Shown here piece by piece: positions 38,476-57,546 of a stretch of DNA of 58,026 nucleotides. Source of the stretch: Bacillota bacterium (GTDB taxonomy: Bacteria > Bacillota > Dethiobacteria > Dethiobacterales > Dethiobacteraceae); the NCBI GenBank assembly GCA_012521405.1, contig JAAYMK010000052.1:1-58026 (forward strand), given 5' to 3'. A model generated the notes under the pieces. It was given only the letters and a program-made list of their open reading frames with translations. It ran no database searches and had not been told where the DNA came from. Each line of letters begins with the position of its first letter. Within the stretch, counting starts at the first letter, position 1. A program made the position numbers and the translations under genes.

Positions 38476-38556
38476 GCGACTGCCGCAACCGCTCGGTAGA
38501 GGTTTAAACTAAAGGGCAAAATGGCCTTTAGTACCTTTGACCGGCGAGTCTGATGG
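38476..38556 (+). promoter_or_regulatory. L21 leader-type RNA upstream of rplU
   Basis: ACTAAAGG (38508-38515) pairs with CCTTTAGT (38525-38532). This is enclosed by AGGT/ACCT (38500-38503 with 38533-38536) and CGGT/ACCG (38494-38497 with 38540-38543), forming an interrupted hairpin that precedes the L21 start. Firmicutes rplU operons commonly have an L21 leader thought to mediate autoregulation; position and architecture fit, but I have not matched the covariance model. Confidence 0.6.
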
Positions 38557-38572
38557 AGGAAGGTGAAAATTG

Positions 38573-44958: not shown

Positions 44959-45450
44959 TTACTTTCTGGCGCAATCGCCGGCAGTTCCTTTTAAAACTTC
45001 TAAACCATGCTGTAAAGCCGGTAGAATGGTAGCGAGATTTTCCTGAACTGCTTTGGGGCTGCCGGGCAGGTTAATAATTAAAGTTTGTTTTCTGATGCCT
45101 GCCACCGCCCTGCTTAACATAGCCTTCGGGGTAATTTTGAGGCTTTCATACCGCATGGCTTCCGGGATACCCGGAACTTGCCTGTCAACTACATCCAAGG
45201 TGGCTTCCGGGGTCCAGTCCCGTGGCGAAAACCCGGTGCCGCCGCTGGTAAGAATTAAATCCAGTTTGAGCTTATCACACATATCTATCATCTCTTGGGC
45301 CAGCACTTGCCTATCATCGGGCAGGATCACTGTTTTTTCTATTTTATAGCCGTTTTCCGTCATGATTTCCGCGATTAATTTGCCGCTTTGATCAATTCTT
45401 TCTCCTTTTGCTCCTTTATCGCTGGCAACTATGATACCTACTCTAAACAC
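44959..45450 (-). CDS. mogA: Molybdopterin adenylyltransferase MogA/MoaB family
   Basis: MogA adenylylates molybdopterin, activating it for metal insertion by MoeA. The 163-residue protein has the MPT-binding motif LILTSGGTGFSPRDWTPEAT and a C-terminal LPGSPKAVQENL motif. The GTG at 45450 is preferred because GGAGG lies 7 nt upstream; the TTG at 45456 is too close to that RBS. It is convergent with tRNA-Ala and divergent from the tup operon, whose downstream moeA genes encode the next enzyme of the pathway. Confidence 0.92.
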   Translation of the reverse strand: MFRVGIIVASDKGAKGERIDQSGKLIAEIMTENGYKIEKTVILPDDRQVLAQEMIDMCDKLKLDLILTSGGTGFSPRDWTPEATLDVVDRQVPGIPEAMRYESLKITPKAMLSRAVAGIRKQTLIINLPGSPKAVQENLATILPALQHGLEVLKGTAGDCARK

Positions 45451-45585
45451 CGGCAAACCTCCTATCGGTTACATTCTCAGCAGACAAAATTTTTATATGC
45501 TGCTAGGTTATCCAATAAAAGTTTGTTTTTATTGTATCACGAGAAGATTATATTTGAAACGTTTTGCTGAATTTGGCGTAAAATC

Positions 45586-45614
45586 TTGTTCTGTTATGTC
45601 AAATATGATATACT
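45586..45614 (+). promoter_or_regulatory. Promoter of the tungstate/Moco operon
   Basis: The -35 TTGTTC (45586-45591) and -10 TATACT (45609-45614) are spaced 17 bp with a TG extended element (45606-45607). Transcription from about 45621 would give a leader of some 145 nt that ends in a terminator before tupA. The 135 bp between mogA and this promoter contain no gene. Confidence 0.72.
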
Positions 45615-45638
45615 CTCTGTGTGAAAATAATATATCTA

Positions 45639-45767
45639 ATTTTCCGAGTCAACTATTCTAAGGCCTAGGCTATGAATGTTGACCGCTGGGTATAAAGAGA
45701 AATCTTTATGCCTTCCGTGCTTGAAAAGGAAAATGATGTGTAAAAACATTCCTTTGAATGTTTTTTT
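45639..45767 (+). promoter_or_regulatory. Riboswitch-like leader with terminator upstream of tupA (Moco/Tuco-type candidate)
   Basis: A three-way junction is readable. P1: ATTTTCC (45639-45645) with GGAAAAT (45728-45734). P2: GTCAAC and ATTC (45648-45658, one bulge) with GAAT-GTTGAC (45674-45683). P3: an 11-bp helix 45688-45698 with 45703-45713 capped by a GAAA tetraloop. A terminator follows at 45743-45767. The P2 strand GAATGTT (45674-45680) is also complementary to AACATTC (45745-45751) in the terminator, giving an alternative antiterminator. Position before tungstate transport and molybdopterin genes suggests sensing of the cofactor or metal. The known Moco motif has not been confirmed base by base. 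Confidence 0.65.
45743..45767 (+). terminator. Regulated intrinsic terminator before tupA
   Basis: The 9-bp stem AAAACATTC/GAATGTTTT with a CTTT loop runs into T7. It lies 64 bp upstream of tupA, inside the leader, so it must be bypassed for expression. Confidence 0.85.
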
Positions 45768-45830
45768 GTTTTTACATGGTGATTTTCCTTTTCCTGCACA
45801 TGAAAAATTTGCTGCAAAGGGGAGATTGGT

Positions 45831-46739
45831 GTGAGAAAGAAAAAATTTAGCTTGTTGTTCATTCTTTTATTGGTTTTATCTCTTATTGTCGTAGGCTGTG
45901 GTTCCAAGGAGCCTGCGGAACCGGAGGAACCGCTTACAGAGGAAAATAATATGGAGGAAGGACAAGCCACGGAAGAGGAGCCTAAAGCCGGTGGCAGTAT
46001 CATTCTCTCCACCACCACATCTACAGAAAACAGCGGACTTTTAGATTTTATTCTTCCCGATTTTACGGAAAAAACAGGCATTGAAGTAAAAGTGGTAGCA
46101 GTAGGTACAGGTAAAGCTTTGCAAATGGGCGTAGACGGTGAAGCAGATGTGCTGTTAGTGCACGCCAAGGCCAGTGAAGAGGAATTTGTGGCTGAGGGTC
46201 ATGGACTGGAAAGATTTGATGTGATGTATAATGATTACATCCTGGTGGGACCGGCTGATGATCCGGCAAAGATTAAGGATCAAGCCAACAGTAACATTGT
46301 AGATGCCTTTAAACTTCTGCATGAGGGAGGACATACTTTTGTTTCCCGGGGCGACGATTCCGGCACCCATAAGAAAGAATTGGAATTGTGGGGAGAAGCC
46401 GGTTTAGAACCTGAGGGAGCATGGTATGTTTCCGCCGGTAAAGGCATGGGCGATGTGTTGCAGATGGCCGATGAAATGCAGGGTTACACTCTAGCTGACA
46501 GGGCAACTTATCTTTCCATGCGGGACAACCTGGAATTAGTCATTGTGACAGAAGGCGATGAAAGATTATTTAACCAATATGGCGTCATCGCTGTAAACCC
46601 GGAGAAAAATGACCAAATTAACGCTGAAGGGGCACAAGCTTTTATCGCATGGCTGCTGTCGGATGAAACGCAAGAACTGATTAGCCAGTTCGGCGTTGCA
46701 GAATATGGCGAGCCCTTATTTATCCCTAACGCCAAGTAA
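45831..46739 (+). CDS. tupA: Tungstate ABC transporter substrate-binding lipoprotein
   Basis: TupA binds tungstate outside the membrane and delivers it to TupB. The 302-residue protein has a lipoprotein signal (basic start, hydrophobic stretch, lipobox VVGC with Cys at ~23) and an acidic linker. Its TupA-type start of the mature domain is ILSTTTSTENSGLLDFILPDFTEKTG (read as a continuous beta-alpha unit), with later GTGKALQMG, VSRGDDSGTHKKEL and YTLADRATYLS. These TTTSTENSG and SRGDDSGTH elements are typical of TupA rather than ModA. It starts with GTG and GGGGAGA as RBS. Confidence 0.92.
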   Translation: MRKKKFSLLFILLLVLSLIVVGCGSKEPAEPEEPLTEENNMEEGQATEEEPKAGGSIILSTTTSTENSGLLDFILPDFTEKTGIEVKVVAVGTGKALQMGVDGEADVLLVHAKASEEEFVAEGHGLERFDVMYNDYILVGPADDPAKIKDQANSNIVDAFKLLHEGGHTFVSRGDDSGTHKKELELWGEAGLEPEGAWYVSAGKGMGDVLQMADEMQGYTLADRATYLSMRDNLELVIVTEGDERLFNQYGVIAVNPEKNDQINAEGAQAFIAWLLSDETQELISQFGVAEYGEPLFIPNAK

Positions 46740-46774
46740 GAGGCAGAAAAATCTAAAAAGAGAGGGTGGAGGCA

Positions 46775-47470
46775 ATGCGTTATATACTTGAAGGCATAAT
46801 TTACGCCATAAAACTGTTGTTATCCTTTGATCCGGAAATTTATGAGATTATCGGTTTATCCATGTATGTTTCCTTTGCCTCTACCCTCATTTCTTCTTTT
46901 CTTGGTATTCCCTTAGGTTTTCTCCTTGGTTTAAAACATTTTAAAGGGAGAAAAATTTTTGCCCGCCTTTTAAATACAGCCATGAGTTTGCCACCGGTAG
47001 TTGTGGGACTGGTGGTTGCTCTTATTTTATCCAGAAGAGGACCTTTAGGGCAGTTGCAACTGATTTTTACACCTGCTGCTATGATTATTGCACAAACTTG
47101 TTTAGTTTTGCCAATTGTGATGGGGGTTATTTTTAATAGCTCCCGGGATAAAGGGACGGAAGTAGAAAAAATGTGCCTGACATTAGGTGCCAATAAGTTG
47201 GATACATTGCTTGTTTTAGTGAAAGAATTGAGAGCCAATATTTTAGTAGCCATCACTTCAGGTTTTGGCCGGGCAATTTCTGAAGTTGGTGCAGTAATGA
47301 TAGTGGGAGGCAATATAAAAAACCATACCAGGGTAATGACAACTTTTATTGCCATGAACCATAGCATGGGAAATTATTATATTTCCATTGCTATGGGTTT
47401 AGTTTTACTGGGGATCTCTTTTATCGTAAATGCCATTTTATACGGCAGGATCACAGGTACAGGTGATTAA
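46775..47470 (+). CDS. tupB: Tungstate ABC transporter permease
   Basis: A binding-protein-dependent transport permease of 231 residues with about five or six helices. The EAA-type cytoplasmic loop is in EKMCLTLGANKLDTLL, and GFGRAISEVGAVMIVGGNI is the TupB/ModB signature. The ATG at 46775 follows GGGTGGAGG closely and is preferred to GTG 46766. Its stop is one base before the tupC start. Confidence 0.93.
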   Translation: MRYILEGIIYAIKLLLSFDPEIYEIIGLSMYVSFASTLISSFLGIPLGFLLGLKHFKGRKIFARLLNTAMSLPPVVVGLVVALILSRRGPLGQLQLIFTPAAMIIAQTCLVLPIVMGVIFNSSRDKGTEVEKMCLTLGANKLDTLLVLVKELRANILVAITSGFGRAISEVGAVMIVGGNIKNHTRVMTTFIAMNHSMGNYYISIAMGLVLLGISFIVNAILYGRITGTGD

Positions 47471-47471
47471 A

Positions 47472-48185
47472 ATGGAAATTACACTAAAAAACGTAAAAAA
47501 GCGCTATCATCAGAAAACAGTCTTGGATATTCCGGACTTTCATTTTTTTCCGGGGAAAATTTATGGTATTATCGGTCCTAACGGTGCCGGGAAGAGCACT
47601 TTGCTCAAAGTCATAGCCAGGCTTGAGGAATTAAGTGAAGGGGAAATTTTTTACCAGCAGCAACCGTTCCGCAAGGAAATTTTAAAGACGATGACATATT
47701 TAACGCAAAAGCCTTTTTTATTTTCCGCCAGTGTGGTGGAGAATATCTCCTACCCCTTGAAGTTTAGAAAATATAAAAGAGATGAAATTCGTTTTTTAGT
47801 GGAAAAAATAATTTCTGAATTCGGCATTGAACATTTGGCCCACCAGTTGGCCACTAAACTTTCCGGGGGCGAAGCACAAAGGGTTGCCTTGGCGAGGGCA
47901 TTGATTTTTAAGCCGCAAATTCTCCTGCTTGATGAGCCTACTTCCAATATGGATCCAAATTCAATTGAAATTATTGAAAAGATAATTTTAAAATATAATC
48001 ATAAAAAAGGTAAAACTATTCTTTTTATCACCCATAATGTGGCACAAGCAAAGAGAATTTGCGATGAAGTGATTTATTTAGAAAATGGTATAATAGTGGA
48101 AAGCGGTAAAGCTAAAGATGTGATTGCCTCCCCCAAGTCAGAAAACTTGCGCAGATTTCTTTCTTTGGAATATTATGTTAACTAA
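47472..48185 (+). CDS. tupC: Tungstate ABC transporter ATP-binding protein
   Basis: The ATPase of the tungstate importer (237 residues). Walker A GPNGAGKS, signature LSGGEAQRVALARAL and Walker B LLLDEPTSNMD are intact, with the switch His in FITHNV. The ATG at 47472, with AGGTGAT upstream, is favoured over an out-of-family extension beginning at 47430 inside tupB. No C-terminal TOBE/MOP domain is present, in contrast to typical ModC. Confidence 0.93.
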   Translation: MEITLKNVKKRYHQKTVLDIPDFHFFPGKIYGIIGPNGAGKSTLLKVIARLEELSEGEIFYQQQPFRKEILKTMTYLTQKPFLFSASVVENISYPLKFRKYKRDEIRFLVEKIISEFGIEHLAHQLATKLSGGEAQRVALARALIFKPQILLLDEPTSNMDPNSIEIIEKIILKYNHKKGKTILFITHNVAQAKRICDEVIYLENGIIVESGKAKDVIASPKSENLRRFLSLEYYVN

Positions 48186-48197
48186 TGAGGTGGGAAG

Positions 48198-49424
48198 ATG
48201 GAATTATTTAAGGTTCATAGTGTAAAAGAAGCCAAAGAACTTTTACGGCAAAACTTTGCTGATTTTGCTTTTGCTGTGGAAGAAATCCCCATAGAGCAGG
48301 CTTTAGGCAGGTATTTGGCTGAAGATGTTGTTTCCCCCATAGATGTTCCCCATTTTAGAAGATCTACGGTAGACGGGTATGCTGTGCTTGCCAAGGATAC
48401 CTTTGGCGCCAGTGAAAGCATGCCTGTTTTTTTACAAGTTTGCGAAGAGGTGGAAATGGGTAAAGAAGCCAAAAGTAAACTCATTTCCGGTCAAGCTGCC
48501 TATGTGCCGACGGGAGGTATGCTGCCTGAGGGGGCAGATTCCGTAGTTATGGTGGAGTATACAGAAAAGCTGGATGCCACCGGCATTGCTGTCTACTATA
48601 CTGCGGCGCCCAAGGAAAATGTGGTGGATGTGGGCGACGATATTCAAAGCGGTTCTTTAGTTTTGCCAAAGGGTTTAAAAATAAGGCCGCAAGATATTGG
48701 CGTTTTATCTGCCATCGGCTTAAGTACGGTAAAAGTTTTTCAAAAACCAAAGGTTGCAGTGATTTCCACAGGTGATGAAATTGTCAGTCCAGAGGAAGAA
48801 GTAAAACCGGGACAGATTAAAGATATTAATACTTTTACCCTTGCCGCCATGGTGGAGGCCGTTGGCGGCGTTGTGACGATTAAAGAGGTGGTCAGAGACG
48901 ATTTTGACCTTTTAAAACAAACTGTTGAAAGAGTAATGGCAGGCAATGATATAATTATCTTGTCAGGGGGCAGTTCGGTGGGTACAAAAGATATTGTCCC
49001 TAAGGTTATAAACGCTGTGGGCGAACCGGGTGTTTTTGTGCACGGAGTCTCCATTAAACCCGGTAAGCCTACCATTCTGGCAAAGGTAGGCAAGAAACCT
49101 GTCTTTGGTTTGCCCGGACATCCCACATCAGCCATGATTGTCTTTAAGATTTTTGTGGAATACTTTATGAAGACTTTTATGCATAATCAAGAGTTGGACA
49201 AGTTTATTCTAGGAGAACTGGCTGTCAATGTCCATTCAGCCCCGGGCAGGGAGACTTATCAGATGGTAACCTTGGAAAAGCAGGGAGAAAAATATTTAGT
49301 TAAGCCTGTACACGGTAAATCCGGCTTTATTACGCTAATGTCAAAAGCAACTGGCTATATTAAAATTCCCACCAATAAAGAAGGGTTGACAGAAGGGGAA
49401 ACGGTGAAAGTTTATCTATTCTAA
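48198..49424 (+). CDS. moeA: Molybdopterin molybdenumtransferase MoeA
   Basis: MoeA inserts molybdate or tungstate into adenylylated molybdopterin. The 408-residue protein has the standard four-domain layout: DVPHFRRSTVDGYAVLA near residue 50, STGDEIV, DINTFTLAAMVEAVGG, and the GGSSVGTKD segment of the MPT-binding domain, then FGLPGHPTSAMIVF and a C-terminal barrel. It follows tupC by 12 bp. With a second MoeA-type gene downstream, the two may serve Mo and W, or bis- and mono-type cofactors. Confidence 0.93.
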   Translation: MELFKVHSVKEAKELLRQNFADFAFAVEEIPIEQALGRYLAEDVVSPIDVPHFRRSTVDGYAVLAKDTFGASESMPVFLQVCEEVEMGKEAKSKLISGQAAYVPTGGMLPEGADSVVMVEYTEKLDATGIAVYYTAAPKENVVDVGDDIQSGSLVLPKGLKIRPQDIGVLSAIGLSTVKVFQKPKVAVISTGDEIVSPEEEVKPGQIKDINTFTLAAMVEAVGGVVTIKEVVRDDFDLLKQTVERVMAGNDIIILSGGSSVGTKDIVPKVINAVGEPGVFVHGVSIKPGKPTILAKVGKKPVFGLPGHPTSAMIVFKIFVEYFMKTFMHNQELDKFILGELAVNVHSAPGRETYQMVTLEKQGEKYLVKPVHGKSGFITLMSKATGYIKIPTNKEGLTEGETVKVYLF

Positions 49425-49443
49425 ATTTGTGAAGGGTGATAAA

Positions 49444-51366
49444 ATGAGCCAAATCGAAAGGAATATATACCTTTCCAATGTTGATCTCCATGAGGCGATA
49501 GAGCTTTTTAGTAAAAGTTTTGACGATTTTAGTAGTTTAAGGCGCAGTGAAATAATTCCCGTGACGGAGTCCTTGGGCAGAATCACCAAGGAACCGGTAT
49601 TTGCCAAGATTTCATCACCCCACTACAATGCAGCGGCCATGGATGGGATTGCCGTCAAAGCAGCCAGTACTTATGGTGCTGATGAAAACAATCCTGTAAG
49701 GTTAAAGCTAAACAAGGATTTTAAGTATATTGACACTGGAGATGTAATTGAAGACCCCTTCGACGCCGTCATCATGATCGAGGATGTTGTTACCATCGAC
49801 GAAGAAACTGTAGAAATTATCAAAGCAGCTTCCCCTTGGCAGCATGTAAGACCTGTGGGGGAAGATATAGTTGCTAATGAAATGATCATTCCTGCTTCCC
49901 ATAAGATTAGGCCTTTTGATATTGGCGCTTTACTCAGCGGCGGGATAGTAGAAGTAGAAGTTATCAGTATGCCTAAAGTGGGAATTATCCCCACCGGTAC
50001 AGAAATTATTGAACCCTGGGATAAAATTGAGCCCGGTAAAATCATTGATTCAAATTCAAGAATGTTTGAAAATCTGGTGAAGGAGTACGGCGGTTTGCCC
50101 GTCAGGTACAATCCGGTCATTGACGATTATGAGCTAATTAAAAAACAAGTGAAAGCGGCCATGGCAGAAAATGACATTGTTATTGTTAATGCAGGTTCTT
50201 CCGCCGGGTCAGAAGATTATACGCCCCATATAGTTAAAGAGTTGGGAGAACTAATTGTTTATGGCGTAGCCATCAAACCGGGAAAGCCTGTTGTTTTAGG
50301 GAAAATAGACAATAAGCCTCTGATCGGTATCCCGGGCTATCCTGTTTCTGCGTATTTTGTTTTTGAAGCTTTTGTAAAACCGCTAATTTTTAAGATTTTA
50401 AATCTTGAAGTGAAAAAAAGACCGGTTGCAAAAGCTGTTTTGTCAAAAAGAATTGTTTCTTCTTTAAAACATTTGGAATTTGCCCGAATGAAGCTGGGGA
50501 AGGTGGAAGATAAGTTAATTGCCACCCCGTTAAGCAGGGGGGCCGGTGTAACTACATCTTTAGTAAAGGCCGATGGTATTACCATTATTCCCAAACATAT
50601 TGAAGGATTTGAAGCAGGCGAAATGATTGATGTTGAATTGCTCAGGGACCTGGAGGAAATTGAAAATACCATTGTTTCCATCGGCAGCCACGACATTATT
50701 ATGGATTTAATCGGCACCATGATTCACGCCAAGTATCCGAAAATGTCTTTATCCTCGGCCCATGTGGGCAGCCTGGGTGGCATCATGGCCATAAAAAGAG
50801 GGGAGGCCCATCTTGCTCCCGTACATCTTTTGGATGAAGAAACAGGCATCTATAACCTCAGCTATATTAGGAGATTTCTTGGTGATAAAGAAGTAGTGCT
50901 GGTTAAAGGCATTAAGAGGCAGCAAGGGATAATGGTGCGCAAGGGCAACCCGAAAAAGATCAAAGGGATAGAAGATTTAACGCGTGAGGATGTAACTTTT
51001 GTTAACAGGCAAAAAGGCTCCGGCACCAGAGTCCTCCTGGATTATAAGCTGAAACAATTAGGCATCGATGCTGCAAAGATAGTTGGTTACGACAGAGAAA
51101 TGACCACCCATATGACTGTTGCTTCAGCCATCATTTCGGGAACTGCCGATGCAGGTATCGGCATTAAATCAGTGGCCAATGTGATGGAGTTAGATTTTAT
51201 TCCCATCGGTGAAGAAGAATACGATTTTGTGCTGGAACAGAAATTTTTGGAGCAGGAAAATATTAAAGTCTTTCTGGAAATTTTACAGTCTGAAGAATTT
51301 AAGCAAAAACTTCTTGAACTGGGAGGCTATTCCTTGGAGGAGCCGGGTAAGTTAATCTACCCATAA
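49444..51366 (+). CDS. MoeA fused to a C-terminal periplasmic-binding (LysR-substrate/ModA-like) domain
   Basis: This 640-residue protein starts with a complete MoeA module (to about residue 405): SPHYNAAAMDGIAVKA, PTGTEIIEP, DSNSRMFENLVKEYGG, NAGSSAGSEDY and IGIPGYPVSAYFVF. A binding-protein-like domain follows (about 420-640), with IGSHDIIMDLIGTMIH, SAHVGSLGGIMAIKRGEAHLAP and NRQKGSGTRVLLDY. Such MoeA-PBP fusions are known in anaerobes and archaea; the extra domain may bind metal oxyanion or a ligand in the cytoplasm, as there is no signal peptide. The ATG at 49444 follows GAAGGGTGAT. A remote alternative is an effector-binding regulatory role. Confidence 0.9.
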   Translation: MSQIERNIYLSNVDLHEAIELFSKSFDDFSSLRRSEIIPVTESLGRITKEPVFAKISSPHYNAAAMDGIAVKAASTYGADENNPVRLKLNKDFKYIDTGDVIEDPFDAVIMIEDVVTIDEETVEIIKAASPWQHVRPVGEDIVANEMIIPASHKIRPFDIGALLSGGIVEVEVISMPKVGIIPTGTEIIEPWDKIEPGKIIDSNSRMFENLVKEYGGLPVRYNPVIDDYELIKKQVKAAMAENDIVIVNAGSSAGSEDYTPHIVKELGELIVYGVAIKPGKPVVLGKIDNKPLIGIPGYPVSAYFVFEAFVKPLIFKILNLEVKKRPVAKAVLSKRIVSSLKHLEFARMKLGKVEDKLIATPLSRGAGVTTSLVKADGITIIPKHIEGFEAGEMIDVELLRDLEEIENTIVSIGSHDIIMDLIGTMIHAKYPKMSLSSAHVGSLGGIMAIKRGEAHLAPVHLLDEETGIYNLSYIRRFLGDKEVVLVKGIKRQQGIMVRKGNPKKIKGIEDLTREDVTFVNRQKGSGTRVLLDYKLKQLGIDAAKIVGYDREMTTHMTVASAIISGTADAGIGIKSVANVMELDFIPIGEEEYDFVLEQKFLEQENIKVFLEILQSEEFKQKLLELGGYSLEEPGKLIYP

Positions 51367-51393: not shown

Positions 51394-52356
51394 ATGCAAG
51401 ATACTTTAGGAAGAAAAATTAATTATTTAAGAGTTTCAGTTACAGACTTATGTAACCTAAGATGTATGTACTGCATGCCTGCGCATGGTGTTTGTAAAAA
51501 GGATCATGACAGCATTTTGAGGATCGAAGAAATTGCTGAGATAGTGAAAGCCGCGGTTGAATTGGGTATCAATAAAGTCAGACTCACCGGGGGAGAGCCC
51601 TTGGTGAGAAAAGGAATTTTGGATTTAGTCGGCGAAATTGGCAGTATTGAAGCCATTAAAGACTTTAGCATGACCACCAATGGTGTCCTCCTTAAAAAGT
51701 ATGCCCAAGCTTTAAAAGCTGCCGGTCTGCATCGGGTCAATATCAGTTTAGACACCTTAAATGCGGAAAAATATAAATACATTACCCGTGGCGGCCACTT
51801 GCAAGATGTGTTGGACGGTATTGCTGAAGCCAAAAGGGTAGGCTTGCTGCCTTTGAAAATAAATGTTGTCCTTATCGGCGGTTTCAATGATGATGAAATT
51901 ACAGACTTTGTGGAACTTACTTTGCAGGAAGAGGTTGAAATTAGATTTATCGAACTTATGCCGGTGGGAGAAGCAAGTACGTGGGCAAAAACACATTTTC
52001 TCTCCAATGAAACTGTGTTGGAGAAATTTCCCGACCTGGTACCGGAAATTACTAATGACAAGAGCAGTCCCGCCAAATATTTTAAGCTGCCTCAAAGTAA
52101 GGGACGTGTGGGATTAATTAATCCCATCAGTAATCATTTTTGCGGCGCTTGTAACCGGCTTAGGGTTACGGCCGACGGTAAAATTAAACCTTGTCTGCAT
52201 GCAAATGCAGAAATTGATATCAGAAAGCTCTTGGCTGCCGGTAAAACTTTGACAGATATTCTTGCCGCCGCCATCTTGCAAAAGCCGGCAGGTCACAAGT
52301 TAAATGACCCCAATTTTGAGCCTATTGAAAGAAATATGTATCAAATTGGAGGCTAA
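51394..52356 (+). CDS. moaA: GTP 3',8-cyclase MoaA
   Basis: A radical SAM enzyme that, with MoaC, converts GTP to cyclic pyranopterin monophosphate. The 320-residue protein has Cys20, Cys24 and Cys27 ([10 protein letters not shown]) for the SAM cluster and the second cluster ligands in [21 protein letters not shown]. The conserved C-terminal Gly-Gly ends the protein. GGAGG precedes the ATG by about 8 bp. Confidence 0.96.
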
Positions 52357-52358
52357 AG

Positions 52359-52841
52359 ATGGAGTTTACGCATTTTAACCACAAGGGTAAAGCAAGAATG
52401 GTGGAAGTTGGCCATAAGGCTGATACCGAAAGAGTTGCTGTGGCCAGGGGCAGCATAAAAATGGCACCGGAAACTTTAAAAATGATCAGAGAAGGACAGA
52501 TGAAAAAAGGAGATGTGCTTGGAGTGGCACAGATCGGCGGGATTATGGCCTGTAAAAGGACAAGTGAACTGATTCCAATGTGCCATAATATATTTCTCAC
52601 CGGTGCCGATATTGATTTTGAAATTGATGAAGCAAACAGTTGTGTCAAGATTGAGGCACAAGTAAAAACAGTAGGGAAGACAGGGGTGGAAATGGAGGCA
52701 TTAACCGCAGTTTCCGTAGCAGCCCTGACAATTTATGATATGTGTAAAGCAGTGGATAAAGATATGATTATTGAAAACATTAGATTGGTGAGAAAAAGCG
52801 GCGGGAAATCTGGAGAATACAGGCGGAAGGGTGAAAACTAA
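52359..52841 (+). CDS. moaC: Cyclic pyranopterin monophosphate synthase MoaC
   Basis: MoaC completes cPMP formation from the MoaA product. The 160-residue protein has [38 protein letters not shown] and the C-terminal KSGGKSG motif. GGAGG lies at the end of moaA, 2 bp separate the genes, and its stop overlaps the next start by one base. Confidence 0.96.
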
Positions 52842-53275
52842 TGGCAAAAGTTGTGGCCATCAATTTAAGCAGGAAAAAAGGTGTGATTAAAACACCTATA
52901 CCGGAAGGAAATTTTCTTGAGGATTTCGGGCTGGAAGGAGATGCCCATGCCGGTAAATGGCATCGCCAAGTAAGCCTTTTAGGTGTGGAAAGCATCGAAA
53001 AAATGAAAGCCATCGGTATAAAAGGTTTATGCGAGGGTAAATTTGCCGAAAACATTACAACCGAAGGTATAGAACTATATAAACTTCCCATAGGCACAAA
53101 ACTGCAGATAGGGGAAACTATCCAGGAAGTCACCCAAATTGGCAAGGAGTGCCACGAAAAATGTGCTATCTATAAACAAGTAGGCAGTTGTGTCATGCCC
53201 AAGGAAGGGATATTTACCAAGGTATTAAAGGGTGGAAAAGTAAAACCTGGTGATGAAATTAAAGTCCTGGAGTAA
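52841..53275 (+). CDS. MOSC domain protein
   Basis: A 144-residue stand-alone MOSC domain (the fold of Moco sulfurase C-termini and YiiM). It contains GLEGDAHAGKWHRQVSLLG and the conserved cysteine region GKECHEKCAIYKQVG. MOSC proteins bind sulfur-carrying or molybdopterin ligands; those in Moco operons of anaerobes are thought to help in cofactor maturation. It is translationally coupled to moaC. No moaE, moaD or mobA is seen in this window, so the pathway is completed elsewhere. Confidence 0.9.
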   Translation: MAKVVAINLSRKKGVIKTPIPEGNFLEDFGLEGDAHAGKWHRQVSLLGVESIEKMKAIGIKGLCEGKFAENITTEGIELYKLPIGTKLQIGETIQEVTQIGKECHEKCAIYKQVGSCVMPKEGIFTKVLKGGKVKPGDEIKVLE

Positions 53276-53281
53276 AGAAGA

Positions 53282-53318
53282 AAGGCCTCAGAGCAGCATG
53301 CTCCGAGGCTTTTTTTTA
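53282..53318 (+). terminator. Terminator of the tup-Moco operon
   Basis: GCCTC-A-GAGCA (53285-53295) pairs with TGCTC-C-GAGGC (53299-53309) around one mismatch, and T9 follows. On the minus strand it can serve, less well, for the convergent gene ending at 53316. Confidence 0.88.
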
Positions 53319-54182
53319 TAACTCGCAGGTAGGCACCGGCCAGTTCATGGACTTGCAGGCGGGGCCTACAGTGGCATGTACCAGTTCTACCTGGCCGTTT
53401 CTCATTTTAAAGAGGTGGCAGTCCGGTAATGAACTGGCAAAGTGACAGAAAGCAACCACCATGCCGGCTTCCACATCTACAAGGAACCTTCTGGGGCCGT
53501 GGTTGGGAATCACTAAGCCTTTGGGGCTGCAGTTATGTTCAGTCATACCTTCAGGCCAGGGGAAACCTTCCTGCTTGATGGTTGTCTGGGTGCCGTTTTC
53601 CCACCGGTCACAGACGGCGGCAAAGGGAGTGGCAACATCGGGATCCAAGGCAAACATATCGAAATAATCGTTGGCGGCGGCAATCATGGCCAGTCTGGAG
53701 CTGCGTTCGGAGAAGGGCAGAATCTGCTCCCAATCCTCATCTTTGGTGGCTAAAAGACCGTCCGGATTAAAAGCAAAGTCACCTTCGCGGGCAATGATGG
53801 CTTCAATTTCAGCCAGTTTGCCATGATTAAAGCCCAGACGTACGGCATAAATCACCTTTTTGCCGTTTTCCTCCATGACTGCTTCGGTAAAGGTACCGAA
53901 TTTCTCCGTATCAACTAAAGTACGTTTCATCAGAATTTTACCGGCTGTTTTCCAAAAGCCTTCCCCCATGTGAACATTTTTGATGACACCGTTTTCCGTA
54001 AATTTTACCCCGGGGGCAAATTGTAATTTTGACGGTTGGTGTGCCAGCAGTGCTTCAAAATAAAAATCGGTAAAATCCTTTAACATGGCACGAATTCCAG
54101 AAGACCACTCTTCTTTAAAATTACGTTCCGGTTCGGTAAACATTCTGATTTCACCCACCGGTGGTTTTGCTCCGTTAGTCAT
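53316..54182 (-). CDS. SnoaL/NTF2-like (DUF8021-like) protein, unknown function
   Basis: The 288-residue soluble protein has no signal peptide or membrane helix. The first part (about 40-140) resembles an NTF2/SnoaL-like cone: FEALLAHQPSKLQFAPGVKFTENG, then GEGFWKTAG, and YAVRLGFNHGKLAEIEAIIARE, a pattern seen in DUF8021-type proteins. The second part repeats a similar layout (FPWPEGMTEHNCSPKGLVIPNHGPRRFLVD, then VVAFCHFAS). Such proteins accompany metabolism of small organic molecules, but no activity can be assigned. It is divergent from a TRAP transporter, suggesting a shared substrate. GGAGGG is 14 nt from the ATG, rather far. Confidence 0.6.
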   Translation of the reverse strand: MTNGAKPPVGEIRMFTEPERNFKEEWSSGIRAMLKDFTDFYFEALLAHQPSKLQFAPGVKFTENGVIKNVHMGEGFWKTAGKILMKRTLVDTEKFGTFTEAVMEENGKKVIYAVRLGFNHGKLAEIEAIIAREGDFAFNPDGLLATKDEDWEQILPFSERSSRLAMIAAANDYFDMFALDPDVATPFAAVCDRWENGTQTTIKQEGFPWPEGMTEHNCSPKGLVIPNHGPRRFLVDVEAGMVVAFCHFASSLPDCHLFKMRNGQVELVHATVGPACKSMNWPVPTCEL

Positions 54183-54556
54183 TTTCTCTTTTCCAGCCCT
54201 CCTTTTTGTGCAGACCTGGCAAGGTCAGAAAAAATCTGCCGGTACTGCTTTGAAATGGTTTTCATTACTATATTATGGGTAATTCTACATAGTTAACCTA
54301 TAATCCTGCTTATTGCCGGATTTTCCTCCTATGCCGCAGCAAATTATGCAGTGTTTAAGTATGAATAATGTTTAAAGCAAAGCAGGCAAATAATTAGAAT
54401 ATTATTAATGTTGCTTGCATATCGGTTAGTGGGAGCATGATGTACAGGCAAGTAGGTTGAGTTTGGCGGGTAAAAAGTGAGAGAGGTTATCACGGCGTGG
54501 CAGATGGGGGCATAAAGGAAATAATTTATCTTAAAACATGAAGGAGGGTGGAAATT
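54183..54556. other. Intergenic region between the divergent DUF8021-like gene and TRAP operon
   Basis: This 374-bp AT-rich stretch contains no gene. On the minus strand TTAACT (54291-54296) and TATAGT (54267-54272), 18 bp apart, form a candidate promoter for the 53316-54182 gene. On the plus strand a TATAAT at 54299-54304 lacks a good -35. No convincing operator palindrome, sigma-54 site or terminator was found; no regulator gene is adjacent. Confidence 0.6.
54267..54296 (-). promoter_or_regulatory. Candidate promoter for the DUF8021-like gene
   Basis: On the minus strand the -35 TTAACT (54291-54296) and -10 TATAGT (54267-54272) are spaced 18 bp, giving a leader of about 78 nt. Confidence 0.45.
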
Positions 54557-55597
54557 TTGCAAAAAGCAGTTGCATGTATCGTTTTAAGCATAATGTTAAT
54601 AAGTTTATTCCTTGTGGGCTGTAGCGGTGAGGACAAGGCGGAAGAGGTAATTGTCTGGGAAGCAGCTTCAGGTTGGGTGCCGGGGGACATCATGAGGGAT
54701 GTCTTTGATATTTTCATAAAAGTTTTGGAAGAAAAAACTGAAGGACAATTAAAAATCAATGTTTCGGGACCGGAAACATTCCCCTCACCGGAGCAGATTA
54801 ATCTATTGCGCGACGGGGCACTTGACCTTATTGGTACCACTCCAGCTTTCTACCTGGAAGATCTGCCTGAAGGTGTGGTTTTGGCTTATACCTGGGGTAC
54901 GCGGGAAGAAAGAAGGGCGGCCGGTTTATATGATGTGGTGGATAAAGCGCACCGGGAAAGGTATAATGCTACATTTGTCACGGAAGCTCCAGCCGGAACC
55001 ATGCATATCTTTATGAAAAACCCCATCGAAAAATTATCTGATCTTCGAGGAAAAAGATTAAGAAGCCCGGCGGCATACATGCCTGCCCTGGAAGCCTTGG
55101 GTGTTACCACCATGTTTATGAGTGACGCCGATACAATTGATGCGCTCCAACAAGGCGTTATTGACGGAGCCATCAGTTCTGTAGCAACTTATGACAGTTG
55201 GAATTACTATGAAGTTGCTCCCTACACCATTTACCCCTCTTTTGCCTTTGTGTTGAGTGTCATCTTTGCCAATGTGGATAGTCTTGAAGCGTTACCTGAA
55301 CATTTACAGGAAGCTTTTTATGAAGCTGTCGAAGAGGCGGAACCGTTAATGGAAGAGTATGCAGTAAAGGAAGTAAAAAGATTTCATGACAGTGCTGCAG
55401 ATAAAGGCATTGTCGATATTCATTTTGAAGGTGCCGAAGCAGAGGAATTTTACAATATCTTTTTTGACAGGTACCTGGAAGTGGCTGTCCGGCCCAACAG
55501 CGGTGATGAAATGGCCAATCATTTAGCCGAAATTTATGCCAAGCTGAATGCACCTCCGCAAGGTAAATTTATCGGCCCCTATAACCCGGCAAATTAG
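54557..55597 (+). CDS. dctP: TRAP transporter substrate-binding lipoprotein (DctP family)
   Basis: The extracytoplasmic solute receptor of a tripartite TRAP transporter. The 346-residue protein has a lipoprotein signal with lipobox LVGC (Cys near residue 22). DctP features are the early GWVPGDIMRDVFDIF, the LKINVSGPETFPSPEQINLLRDGALDLIG segment (split by the strand-helix junction at PETF), and LRGKRLRSPAAYMPALEALGV with the substrate-binding arginine. The TTG at 54557 has AAGGAGGGTG 6 bp upstream and is preferred to GTG 54548 inside that RBS. Substrate cannot be told; an organic anion is usual. Confidence 0.9.
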   Translation: MQKAVACIVLSIMLISLFLVGCSGEDKAEEVIVWEAASGWVPGDIMRDVFDIFIKVLEEKTEGQLKINVSGPETFPSPEQINLLRDGALDLIGTTPAFYLEDLPEGVVLAYTWGTREERRAAGLYDVVDKAHRERYNATFVTEAPAGTMHIFMKNPIEKLSDLRGKRLRSPAAYMPALEALGVTTMFMSDADTIDALQQGVIDGAISSVATYDSWNYYEVAPYTIYPSFAFVLSVIFANVDSLEALPEHLQEAFYEAVEEAEPLMEEYAVKEVKRFHDSAADKGIVDIHFEGAEAEEFYNIFFDRYLEVAVRPNSGDEMANHLAEIYAKLNAPPQGKFIGPYNPAN

Positions 55598-55603
55598 CTT
55601 AAT

Positions 55604-55652
55604 GACGCATCCGGTATGTTTGCCCGATGCTTAATTGCATGCCGGGTGCGTC
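55604..55652 (+). promoter_or_regulatory. Intercistronic stem-loop between dctP and dctQ
   Basis: An 11-bp stem GACGCATCCGG (55604-55614) with CCGGGTGCGTC (55642-55652), one GU pair, lies in the 87-bp gap. No T-run follows, so it is more likely an mRNA-stabilising or processing element that favours excess receptor over membrane subunits. Confidence 0.65.
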
Positions 55653-55684
55653 CTGTTTACTCTAAAAAGGTGAGGTGAAGGCAG

Positions 55685-56242
55685 ATGAGTAAACTGGGAA
55701 AAATCGTACGCAGTCTTGTTGACAACTGGTATCGCCTGGCAATAACCATTAGCTGCCTAATTGTGACTTTAGCAATGTTAATCATTGTCGCAGAGGTTAC
55801 TGCCCGCAAGTTTTTTAATTATTCCATTCAATTTGTGATGCAGTTTAGCGGCTATACACTTTTTGCCGTTACTTTTTTCGCTGCCGCCTGGGTGCTGCGG
55901 GAAAAATCCCATTTAAGTGTTACTTTTGTCATTGATAATTTTAAACAACGAACACGTGCCATCCATGATTTAATCCTGAAAATCATTGGTTTTTTAATCA
56001 GTGTTTTTTTGCTTTATATTACCGCCCACTACTTGGTGAATAGTGTAATTGCCACAGGCATGTCAACAGAATATCCCATTCGTTTTCCTCTGGCGTATAT
56101 CTTTGTCTGGATGCCGGTAGGTTGGTTATTTATGGTGATAGAGTATTTGTTGCAAATCTGGCAGGATCTAAAGAGCCTGATAAAACCTAAACAAACTCAG
56201 AATGATCCCATGACAATAGAAGAGATGGGAGGGTTATCATGA
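55685..56242 (+). CDS. dctQ: TRAP transporter small permease subunit
   Basis: A 185-residue membrane protein with four helices, as expected for DctQ. The second-helix region contains VTARKFFNYSIQFVMQFSGYTLFAVTFFAAAWVLREKSHLSV, a family-like layout (R-K-F then a helix then REKSHLSV). AGGTGAGG is the RBS. The stop overlaps the dctM start by 4 bp (ATGA). Confidence 0.88.
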   Translation: MSKLGKIVRSLVDNWYRLAITISCLIVTLAMLIIVAEVTARKFFNYSIQFVMQFSGYTLFAVTFFAAAWVLREKSHLSVTFVIDNFKQRTRAIHDLILKIIGFLISVFLLYITAHYLVNSVIATGMSTEYPIRFPLAYIFVWMPVGWLFMVIEYLLQIWQDLKSLIKPKQTQNDPMTIEEMGGLS

Positions 56243-57546
56243 GTGTATTTTTAGTGGTAGGAGTTTTATTGGGCGTATTTTTTCTTTTAATGTTTTTAGG
56301 TTTACCGGTAGCTTTAGCATTTATTGCCGCCAACCTTTCTGTGCTTTTCCTCCACAGCGGTACCAGATTTTTTAGCCTTATAGCAGTAGGCATGTTTAAT
56401 TCTTTGAATTCCTTTGTTCTCATTGCCGTTCCCCTTTTTATCATTATGGGAGAAGTAATGGTACGGTGCCGCTTTGTTGATTTAATCACAGACGTTTCGG
56501 AGAGTATTTTTGGTAAGCTGCGCGCCCAGGATGCAATCCTGACGGTAGGTACAGGCACCGTTCTCGCAGCCTTAAGCGGTGCACCCATTGCTACCGGTGC
56601 TACCTTAGGCTCAACAATGGTACCAAGGATGATTGATAACGGTTATGCCAAATGGTTTGCAGCCGGTGCTGCCCTTGGTGGTGCCTCCCTGGCCACACTG
56701 ATTCCGCCAAGTTCGCTGGCCATTATCCTGGCAACTTTAGCCGAGGTTTCGCCCACCAGGGTACTCATTGGCGGTATTGTGCCCGGCCTTATTTGTTCAT
56801 TTTTATTTATTGTTTTTATCCTTATCAGCAGCAGAATATGGCCTCATCTTGCCCCTGCCGTGCCTGAAGGAAAAAATAAATCTTCAAAGCGTGAAATTGT
56901 GGTTAGGATACTGCGAGCGGCACCGTTGCTTTTGATTGTATTTCTCGTGGTAGGGGTGATCTTTCTTGGCATAGCCACAGCCACAGAAGCGGCAGCCTTA
57001 GGAGCACTGGGTACCATTTTACTAGGCTTCGCCTATAAAAGAATGTCTTGGAGAATATTAAAAGATACTTTAGTGGCAACGGTGAAGATGACAAGTATGC
57101 TTTTTCTCATCCTTTCAGCTTCAAGCATTTTTGGCAGGGTACTTACTCTCACCGGTGCCGGCGGTACTATTGTTAATGCCATAGTTTCAGCACCGGTTCC
57201 GCCAATAGTTGTTATACTAATTATGATTGGAAGCATTTTATTGCTGGGATGCGTAATGGACGCCATTGCCATGATGATGATAACAGTTCCCCTGTATGTT
57301 CCTGCAGTAATTGCTTTAGGTTTTGATCCGCTTTGGTTTTGTGTGTTAGTATTAATAACTACAGGAGTAGCAGGTCTCACGCCTCCGGTAGGGATGGTGC
57401 TATATGCCTTGAAAGGAGCTACCGACAAAGTAGATATGAAAGATGTATATCTAGGCGGAGCACCGTACTTTACCATTGAAATTCTGGTAATACTTTTGCT
57501 TATGGCTTTTCCTGCTCTTGGCCTCTGGCTGCCGAATCTGATTTAA
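56239..57546 (+). CDS. dctM: TRAP transporter large permease subunit
   Basis: The 435-residue, about 12-helix channel subunit of the TRAP transporter. DctM features include VALAFIAANLSVLF, a long FNSLNSFVLIAVPLFIIMGEVM, the LAALSGAPIATGATLGS loop, LIPPSSLAIILA, and the C-terminal GLTPPVGMVLYALKG. These two PP-containing loops mirror each other, as in the family's inverted repeat. Coupled to dctQ by the ATGA overlap. Confidence 0.94.
   Translation: MSVFLVVGVLLGVFFLLMFLGLPVALAFIAANLSVLFLHSGTRFFSLIAVGMFNSLNSFVLIAVPLFIIMGEVMVRCRFVDLITDVSESIFGKLRAQDAILTVGTGTVLAALSGAPIATGATLGSTMVPRMIDNGYAKWFAAGAALGGASLATLIPPSSLAIILATLAEVSPTRVLIGGIVPGLICSFLFIVFILISSRIWPHLAPAVPEGKNKSSKREIVVRILRAAPLLLIVFLVVGVIFLGIATATEAAALGALGTILLGFAYKRMSWRILKDTLVATVKMTSMLFLILSASSIFGRVLTLTGAGGTIVNAIVSAPVPPIVVILIMIGSILLLGCVMDAIAMMMITVPLYVPAVIALGFDPLWFCVLVLITTGVAGLTPPVGMVLYALKGATDKVDMKDVYLGGAPYFTIEILVILLLMAFPALGLWLPNLI

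Follow-up and report, generated by a model that had tools for sequence, protein, structure and literature searches.

A P3-lacking Moco-family RNA upstream of a tungstate-type transporter operon is a likely transcriptional OFF switch that probably senses tungsten cofactor

In this Dethiobacteraceae genome, a structured leader precedes genes for oxyanion transport and pterin cofactor synthesis, which raises the question of what this RNA is, what it senses, and how it controls the genes behind it. We examined it within a window, by which we mean the whole stretch of 58,026 nucleotides analysed (contig JAAYMK010000052.1). Gene order downstream of the leader is tupABC-moeA-moeA/PBP-moaA-moaC-MOSC, all on the forward strand. 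The transporter genes encode a tupA-like substrate-binding protein (45831–46739; PF12849 at 1e-53, and the TupA model NF041772 at 1e-72, under its curated cut-off), a tupB-like permease (46766–47470; NF038017 over cut-off, and the TupB model NF041773 at 7e-51, under cut-off), and a tupC-like ABC ATPase (47472–48185; PF00005, with the WtpC and PstB models also matching, all under cut-off). Because TupA, TupB, and TupC all fall under the NCBIfam equivalog cut-offs, the term "tungstate" rests on homology. The remaining genes are moeA (48198–49424; MoeA_N, MoCF_biosynth, and MoeA_C), moeA fused to a PBP-like domain (49429–51366; NF011068 at 800 bits, over cut-off, and PF12727), moaA (51394–52356; TIGR02666 over cut-off), moaC (52359–52841; TIGR00581 over cut-off), and a gene for a MOSC-domain protein (52841–53275; PF03473). 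A divergent mogA/moaB-like gene (44959–45456, reverse strand; PF00994, and TIGR00177 over cut-off) is not downstream of the switch.

Transcription of the leader is expected to begin near 45621, downstream of a promoter with hexamers TTGTTC (45586–45591) and TATACT (45609–45614), a 17-bp spacer, and an extended −10 TG. Both hexamers, their separation, and the TG motif recur in a congener (locus L032, identical with L113) whose TupA is 89–91% identical to that of the window. An automatic promoter scan made no call for the tupA promoter, since the −35 hexamer agrees with the consensus at only three of six positions. Transcription would then meet an intrinsic terminator (45742–45772), which consists of a 10-bp stem (45742–45751 with 45756–45765), a CTTT loop, and a U-rich tail. 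Its stem-loop is identical in the congener and lies 65 bp upstream of the tupA GTG, which is preceded by a likely Shine-Dalgarno sequence, AAGGGGAG (45816–45823). The promoter, hairpins, and terminator that an initial annotation had read from the letters of this DNA are all present where it had placed them.

The leader is a clear, ordinary, and conserved member of the Moco/Tuco riboswitch family. The Rfam covariance model RF01055 (Moco RNA, "Molybdenum/Tungsten riboswitch") matched positions 45630–45747 of the forward strand with 83.2 bits (E 9.4e-19; curated threshold 36 bits), and the alignment spans model positions 1–135 of 135 with the invariant core positions kept. Folding of 45621–45770 gave a minimum free energy of −44.4 kcal/mol (z −6.4), and none of 200 shuffled sequences was equally stable. 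P1, P2, and P4 are all present in this fold, and its helices agree with the covariance model pair for pair. The genomic position also suits the family, as the RNA lies 5′ of Mo/W transport and pterin cofactor genes (tupABC, moeA, moaA, and moaC). The initial annotation had proposed running this model, and the outcome bears out its cis-regulatory RNA of Moco/Tuco kind with a terminator platform; the same score rules out the new tungstate- or cofactor-sensing class that it had also entertained. Weak matches of the leader to other Rfam models (Phe_leader, TP53TG1, and others) were all far under threshold, and we attribute them to chance.

Mapped onto the window, the Rfam model places each helix of the aptamer. 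P1 pairs 45640–45645 with 45728–45733, with outer pairs extending to 45632/45741, and P2 (45648–45683) pairs 45648–45658 with 45674–45683, with a distal stem at 45662–45665/45668–45671. P4 (45688–45713) is an 11-bp hairpin (45688–45698 with 45703–45713) closed by a GAAA loop (45699–45702); this mapping shows that the hairpin previously labelled P3 is real but corresponds to P4 in the literature numbering. Three elements are additional to the earlier description, namely a small P5 (45714–45724; 45714–45715 with 45723–45724), a GAAA tetraloop receptor within P2, and a second arm beyond the terminator (45782–45799). The receptor comprises CUAAG (45658–45662) and its partner UAUG (45671–45674), both in conserved alignment columns, and such a receptor has already been described for the Moco RNA family (PMC2408646). 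That paper (Regulski et al. 2008) is the direct prior art for the tupA leader, which shares with RF01055 the P1 helix, P2 with its receptor, P4 with its GAAA loop, P5, the conserved core, a terminator platform, and downstream cofactor and transport genes, and which shows no difference in the aptamer core. The E. coli Moco RNA, unlike the tupA leader, has a P3 and overlaps the ribosome-binding site.

Covariation among homologous leaders, which had been named in advance as the test of these helices, backs all of P1, P2, P4, and P5. Across 48 P3-lacking RNAs of related genomes, 25 of the 32 pairs change on both sides. Two-sided cells numbered 370, compared with 137.5 ± 12.1 in shuffles, and the covariation score was reached in none of 500 shuffles; as the Rfam model served to collect these RNAs, they lean towards its structure, but the effect size is well beyond such bias. 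Cells were paired in 90.3% of cases, compared with at most 52.6% when the structure was slid along the alignment. By helix, two-sided changes affected four of six P1 core pairs, eight of nine P2 pairs, three of four distal P2 pairs, and eight of 11 P4 pairs (95.8% of cells paired), and both P5 pairs covary (100% of cells paired).

Pairing between the aptamer and the terminator suggests how this RNA could switch. The sequence AAAGGAA (45725–45731), which overlaps the 3′ strand of P1, is complementary to TTCCTTT at the terminator apex (45749–45755), and this pairing is kept in the congener. At the decision point, taken as a nascent RNA ending at 45756, the aptamer fold has an energy of −36.0 kcal/mol and the AAAGGAA/TTCCTTT antiterminator −34.1 kcal/mol, a cost of 1.9 kcal/mol. 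For the class, we compared 62 non-redundant terminator-bearing members with dinucleotide shuffles (Wilcoxon test). Complementarity of the terminator 5′ half to the aptamer 3′ core exceeded that of shuffles (p 9e-7); two control strands gave p 0.06 (P4 3′) and p 0.03 (P2 5′), so only the 3′-core signal is strong. Within the window itself the duplex was marginally better than shuffles (p 0.11), and the case for this antiterminator draws on how it is conserved, on its being mutually exclusive with P1, and on the statistic for the class. The arrangement shares with the general design of terminator-type riboswitches an aptamer 3′ strand used by both P1 and the antiterminator, but differs in that the antiterminator meets the terminator apex (the last three stem bases and the loop) and not the whole 5′ arm.

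Two other readings of the switch have to be weighed against this one. The initial annotation had the 3′ strand of P2, GAATGTT (45674–45680), pair with AACATTC (45745–45751) in the terminator 5′ arm and so allow read-through. The 7-nt complementarity is indeed exact in the tupA leader and better than with shuffled terminator halves (p 0.007), but it is not conserved, as the congener has GAAGGTT and the duplex advantage is gone (p 0.65). At the decision point this hybrid reaches only −24.5 kcal/mol, which leaves it 11.5 kcal/mol short of the aptamer fold, and the class shows no enrichment for pairing of the P2 3′ strand with the terminator 5′ half (p 0.13, same 62 members). On the congener, the energies, and the class statistics we rejected the P2 hybrid as antiterminator; read-through by this route is highly improbable, and AAAGGAA/TTCCTTT is the better candidate. 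A genetic ON switch, in which ligand would favour the antiterminated form, is a reading that we consider very unlikely. Direction of control is not computable from sequence, which leaves it some room, but the minimum-free-energy structure contains aptamer and terminator side by side and so shows them to be compatible, the antiterminator draws on the P1 3′ strand, and the downstream uptake and synthesis genes lead one to expect feedback repression. The E. coli member, moreover, represses on Moco (PMC2408646). For the Moco riboswitch of E. coli, PMC12121620 reports termination and cites a structural study.

Because the aptamer and terminator can form together, we infer that the operon should be OFF when the aptamer is folded around its ligand. 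The suggestion that ligand turns the operon off is thus retained, with the P1/P5 core and not P2 as the part that should be stabilised. When cofactor is plentiful, ligand would stabilise the core of P1, P2, P4, and P5, and the tetraloop of P4 would dock in P2; AAAGGAA would be sequestered in P1, the terminator would form unopposed, and tupABC and the pterin cofactor genes would go untranscribed. When cofactor is scarce, P1 would open and AAAGGAA would pair with TTCCTTT at the terminator apex, blocking the terminator and switching on tungstate uptake and pterin synthesis. Taken as a whole, an RF01055 member in P3-lacking form that probably senses Tuco and works as a transcriptional OFF switch is a reading in which we have good, though not full, confidence.

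The absence of P3 bears on which metal form the RNA senses. In the tupA leader the P3 hairpin is deleted in the Rfam alignment, and a four-nucleotide junction (45684–45687) takes its place. Regulski et al. (2008, PMC2408646) found that 58 of 176 Moco RNAs were without P3, a pattern that tracked tungsten cofactor (Tuco) genes, and P3-lacking RNAs were proposed as Tuco riboswitches. The exact metabolite is still unidentified according to PMC10845959, and neither of these papers reports direct ligand binding to any family member. Like the proposed Tuco riboswitches, the tupA leader lacks P3, is followed by a tungstate-type transporter and pterin synthesis genes, and occurs in a genome with tungsten-type genes. 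We surveyed 144 class members, of which 104 lack P3. Tup-type transporters, classed by similarity to the TupA and TupB of the window, followed 22 P3-lacking and two P3-bearing RNAs, compared with nine and eight for mod-type permeases (Fisher p 0.008); ten of the P3 calls were set by hand, and related genomes contribute loci that are not independent of one another. This trend agrees with the published link between P3 and tungsten, with exceptions in both directions.

Gene content of the genome as a whole is consistent with tungsten use, with names again assigned by homology. It encodes five AFOR_N proteins, a domain that also occurs in E. coli, and one PF00384 protein of formate dehydrogenase type with an in-frame TGA that would encode selenocysteine. 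No TIGR01256 match, the model searched for modA, was found in the genome. Four MoCoBD_1 proteins are also encoded, and this family usually carries molybdenum.

From the missing P3, the transporter, the AFOR_N and formate dehydrogenase-type proteins, and the lack of a modA match, we infer that the tupA leader probably senses the tungsten cofactor, in preference to that of molybdenum. The same riboswitch and OFF switch might instead sense Moco, or the cofactor with either metal, which we judge unlikely. Such a ligand would accommodate the MoCoBD_1 proteins, the two P3-bearing RNAs before tupA-like genes and the nine P3-lacking RNAs before mod-type permeases, and the finding that the E. coli RNA lost regulation when its P3 was removed and did not become a Tuco sensor (PMC2408646). 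It fits less well with a P3-lacking leader whose first genes are for a tungstate-type transporter, with the lack of a detected modA, or with the 22:2 versus 9:8 association. That the first genes encode an oxyanion transporter could also point to a distinct class sensing the tungstate or molybdate anion itself. This we regard as extremely improbable given the full-length RF01055 match with its invariant core, and PMC2408646 ties E. coli regulation to cofactor synthesis genes.

The arm beyond the terminator sets the tupA leader apart from other P3-lacking, Tuco-type RNAs. These 18 nt (45782–45799) are 89% complementary to 45717–45734, on the 3′ side of P5 and P1, and the predicted duplex of −21.4 kcal/mol compares with −9.1 kcal/mol in shuffles, none of 1,000 of which was as good. 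The corresponding duplex in the congener has p 0.002 despite diverged flanking sequence. At p ≤ 0.02 an arm was found in three of 72 class loci, two of them from the genus of the window, which rules out a class-wide feature and marks it as genus-specific. In full-length read-through mRNA the arm may dismantle P5 and P1. By the time the arm is transcribed, termination has already been decided, so a read-through lock can be offered only as a possible role. Together with 45739–45748/45767–45776, the arm would also form a long hairpin in read-through RNA.

The only other RF01055 RNA found in the genome, also P3-lacking, precedes an operon that looks like an import or salvage system for a pterin cofactor, judging from its predicted proteins. 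This operon (locus L112, G000:C24:8000-16500, reverse strand; locus L266, 5285–8046, reverse strand) begins with an FMN_bind lipoprotein, a lipoprotein with two Oxidored_molyb (PF00174) stretches, and a PF09819 ECF-type membrane component. It continues with a type I phosphodiesterase/nucleotide pyrophosphatase, a small cysteine-free PF00174 protein, two ABC ATPases, a CbiQ-type EcfT, MobB, and MoeA. A lipoprotein of this operon had no match in a PDB sequence search, and we found no description of such a system in the literature searched; Moco importers were not among the coenzyme uptake functions in a 2013 regulon survey (PMC3766115). Of 398 genomes in the phylum, 47 encode relatives of the PF09819 component, and these often adjoin PF00174 and phosphodiesterase proteins (loci L268–L297), with mobB downstream in L295. 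Two of 20 loci tested have an RF01055 RNA no more than 1.5 kb from such a relative (L281, and L274, where it is directly upstream), and all six PF09819-type ECF operons in the riboswitch survey have P3-lacking RNAs. Tentatively, and with some doubt, both P3-lacking RNAs could together define a tungsten cofactor regulon that joins uptake and synthesis to ECF-type pterin cofactor import or salvage, with the post-terminator arm locking the tupA leader ON and freeing the mRNA from the ligand.

The tupA leader adds one more clear-cut case to an established family, within the subgroup that has a putative Tuco ligand. Its usefulness lies in a strongly tungsten-flavoured operon and in a simple platform of two states whose antiterminator is open to testing; with one other copy in the genome, before a putative importer, it offers a tractable place to test the tungsten versus molybdenum preference of P3-lacking RNAs.

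The survey also turned up other arrangements of Moco RNAs. Four loci of the same family (L116, L117, L121, and L123) have P3-bearing RNAs followed by a gene of 244–250 aa that resembles tatC by sequence; in three of the four, moaA comes next, together with a gene that is moeA-like or of MOSC type. The congener has a third Moco RNA (L115, G001:C45) with core CCAAA and not CCGAG, before genes of 310, 382, 355, and 260 aa. Genomes G156 (contigs C21 and C13), G139, G111, and G165 each carry 12–15 Moco RNAs, some closely spaced and of mixed P3 status.

Elsewhere in the window, a 288-aa protein with no Pfam or NCBIfam match (53316–54182, reverse strand) is convergent with the operon end. Beyond it are TRAP-type transporter genes (54548–57546), a DctP-family binding protein (PF03480) and then two apparent membrane subunits, followed by two CRISPR-DR2 direct repeats at the contig end (57915–58016, reverse strand). 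A ribosomal protein L21 leader lies at 38477–38561 (40.4 bits), and a tRNA cluster occupies positions 1–660.
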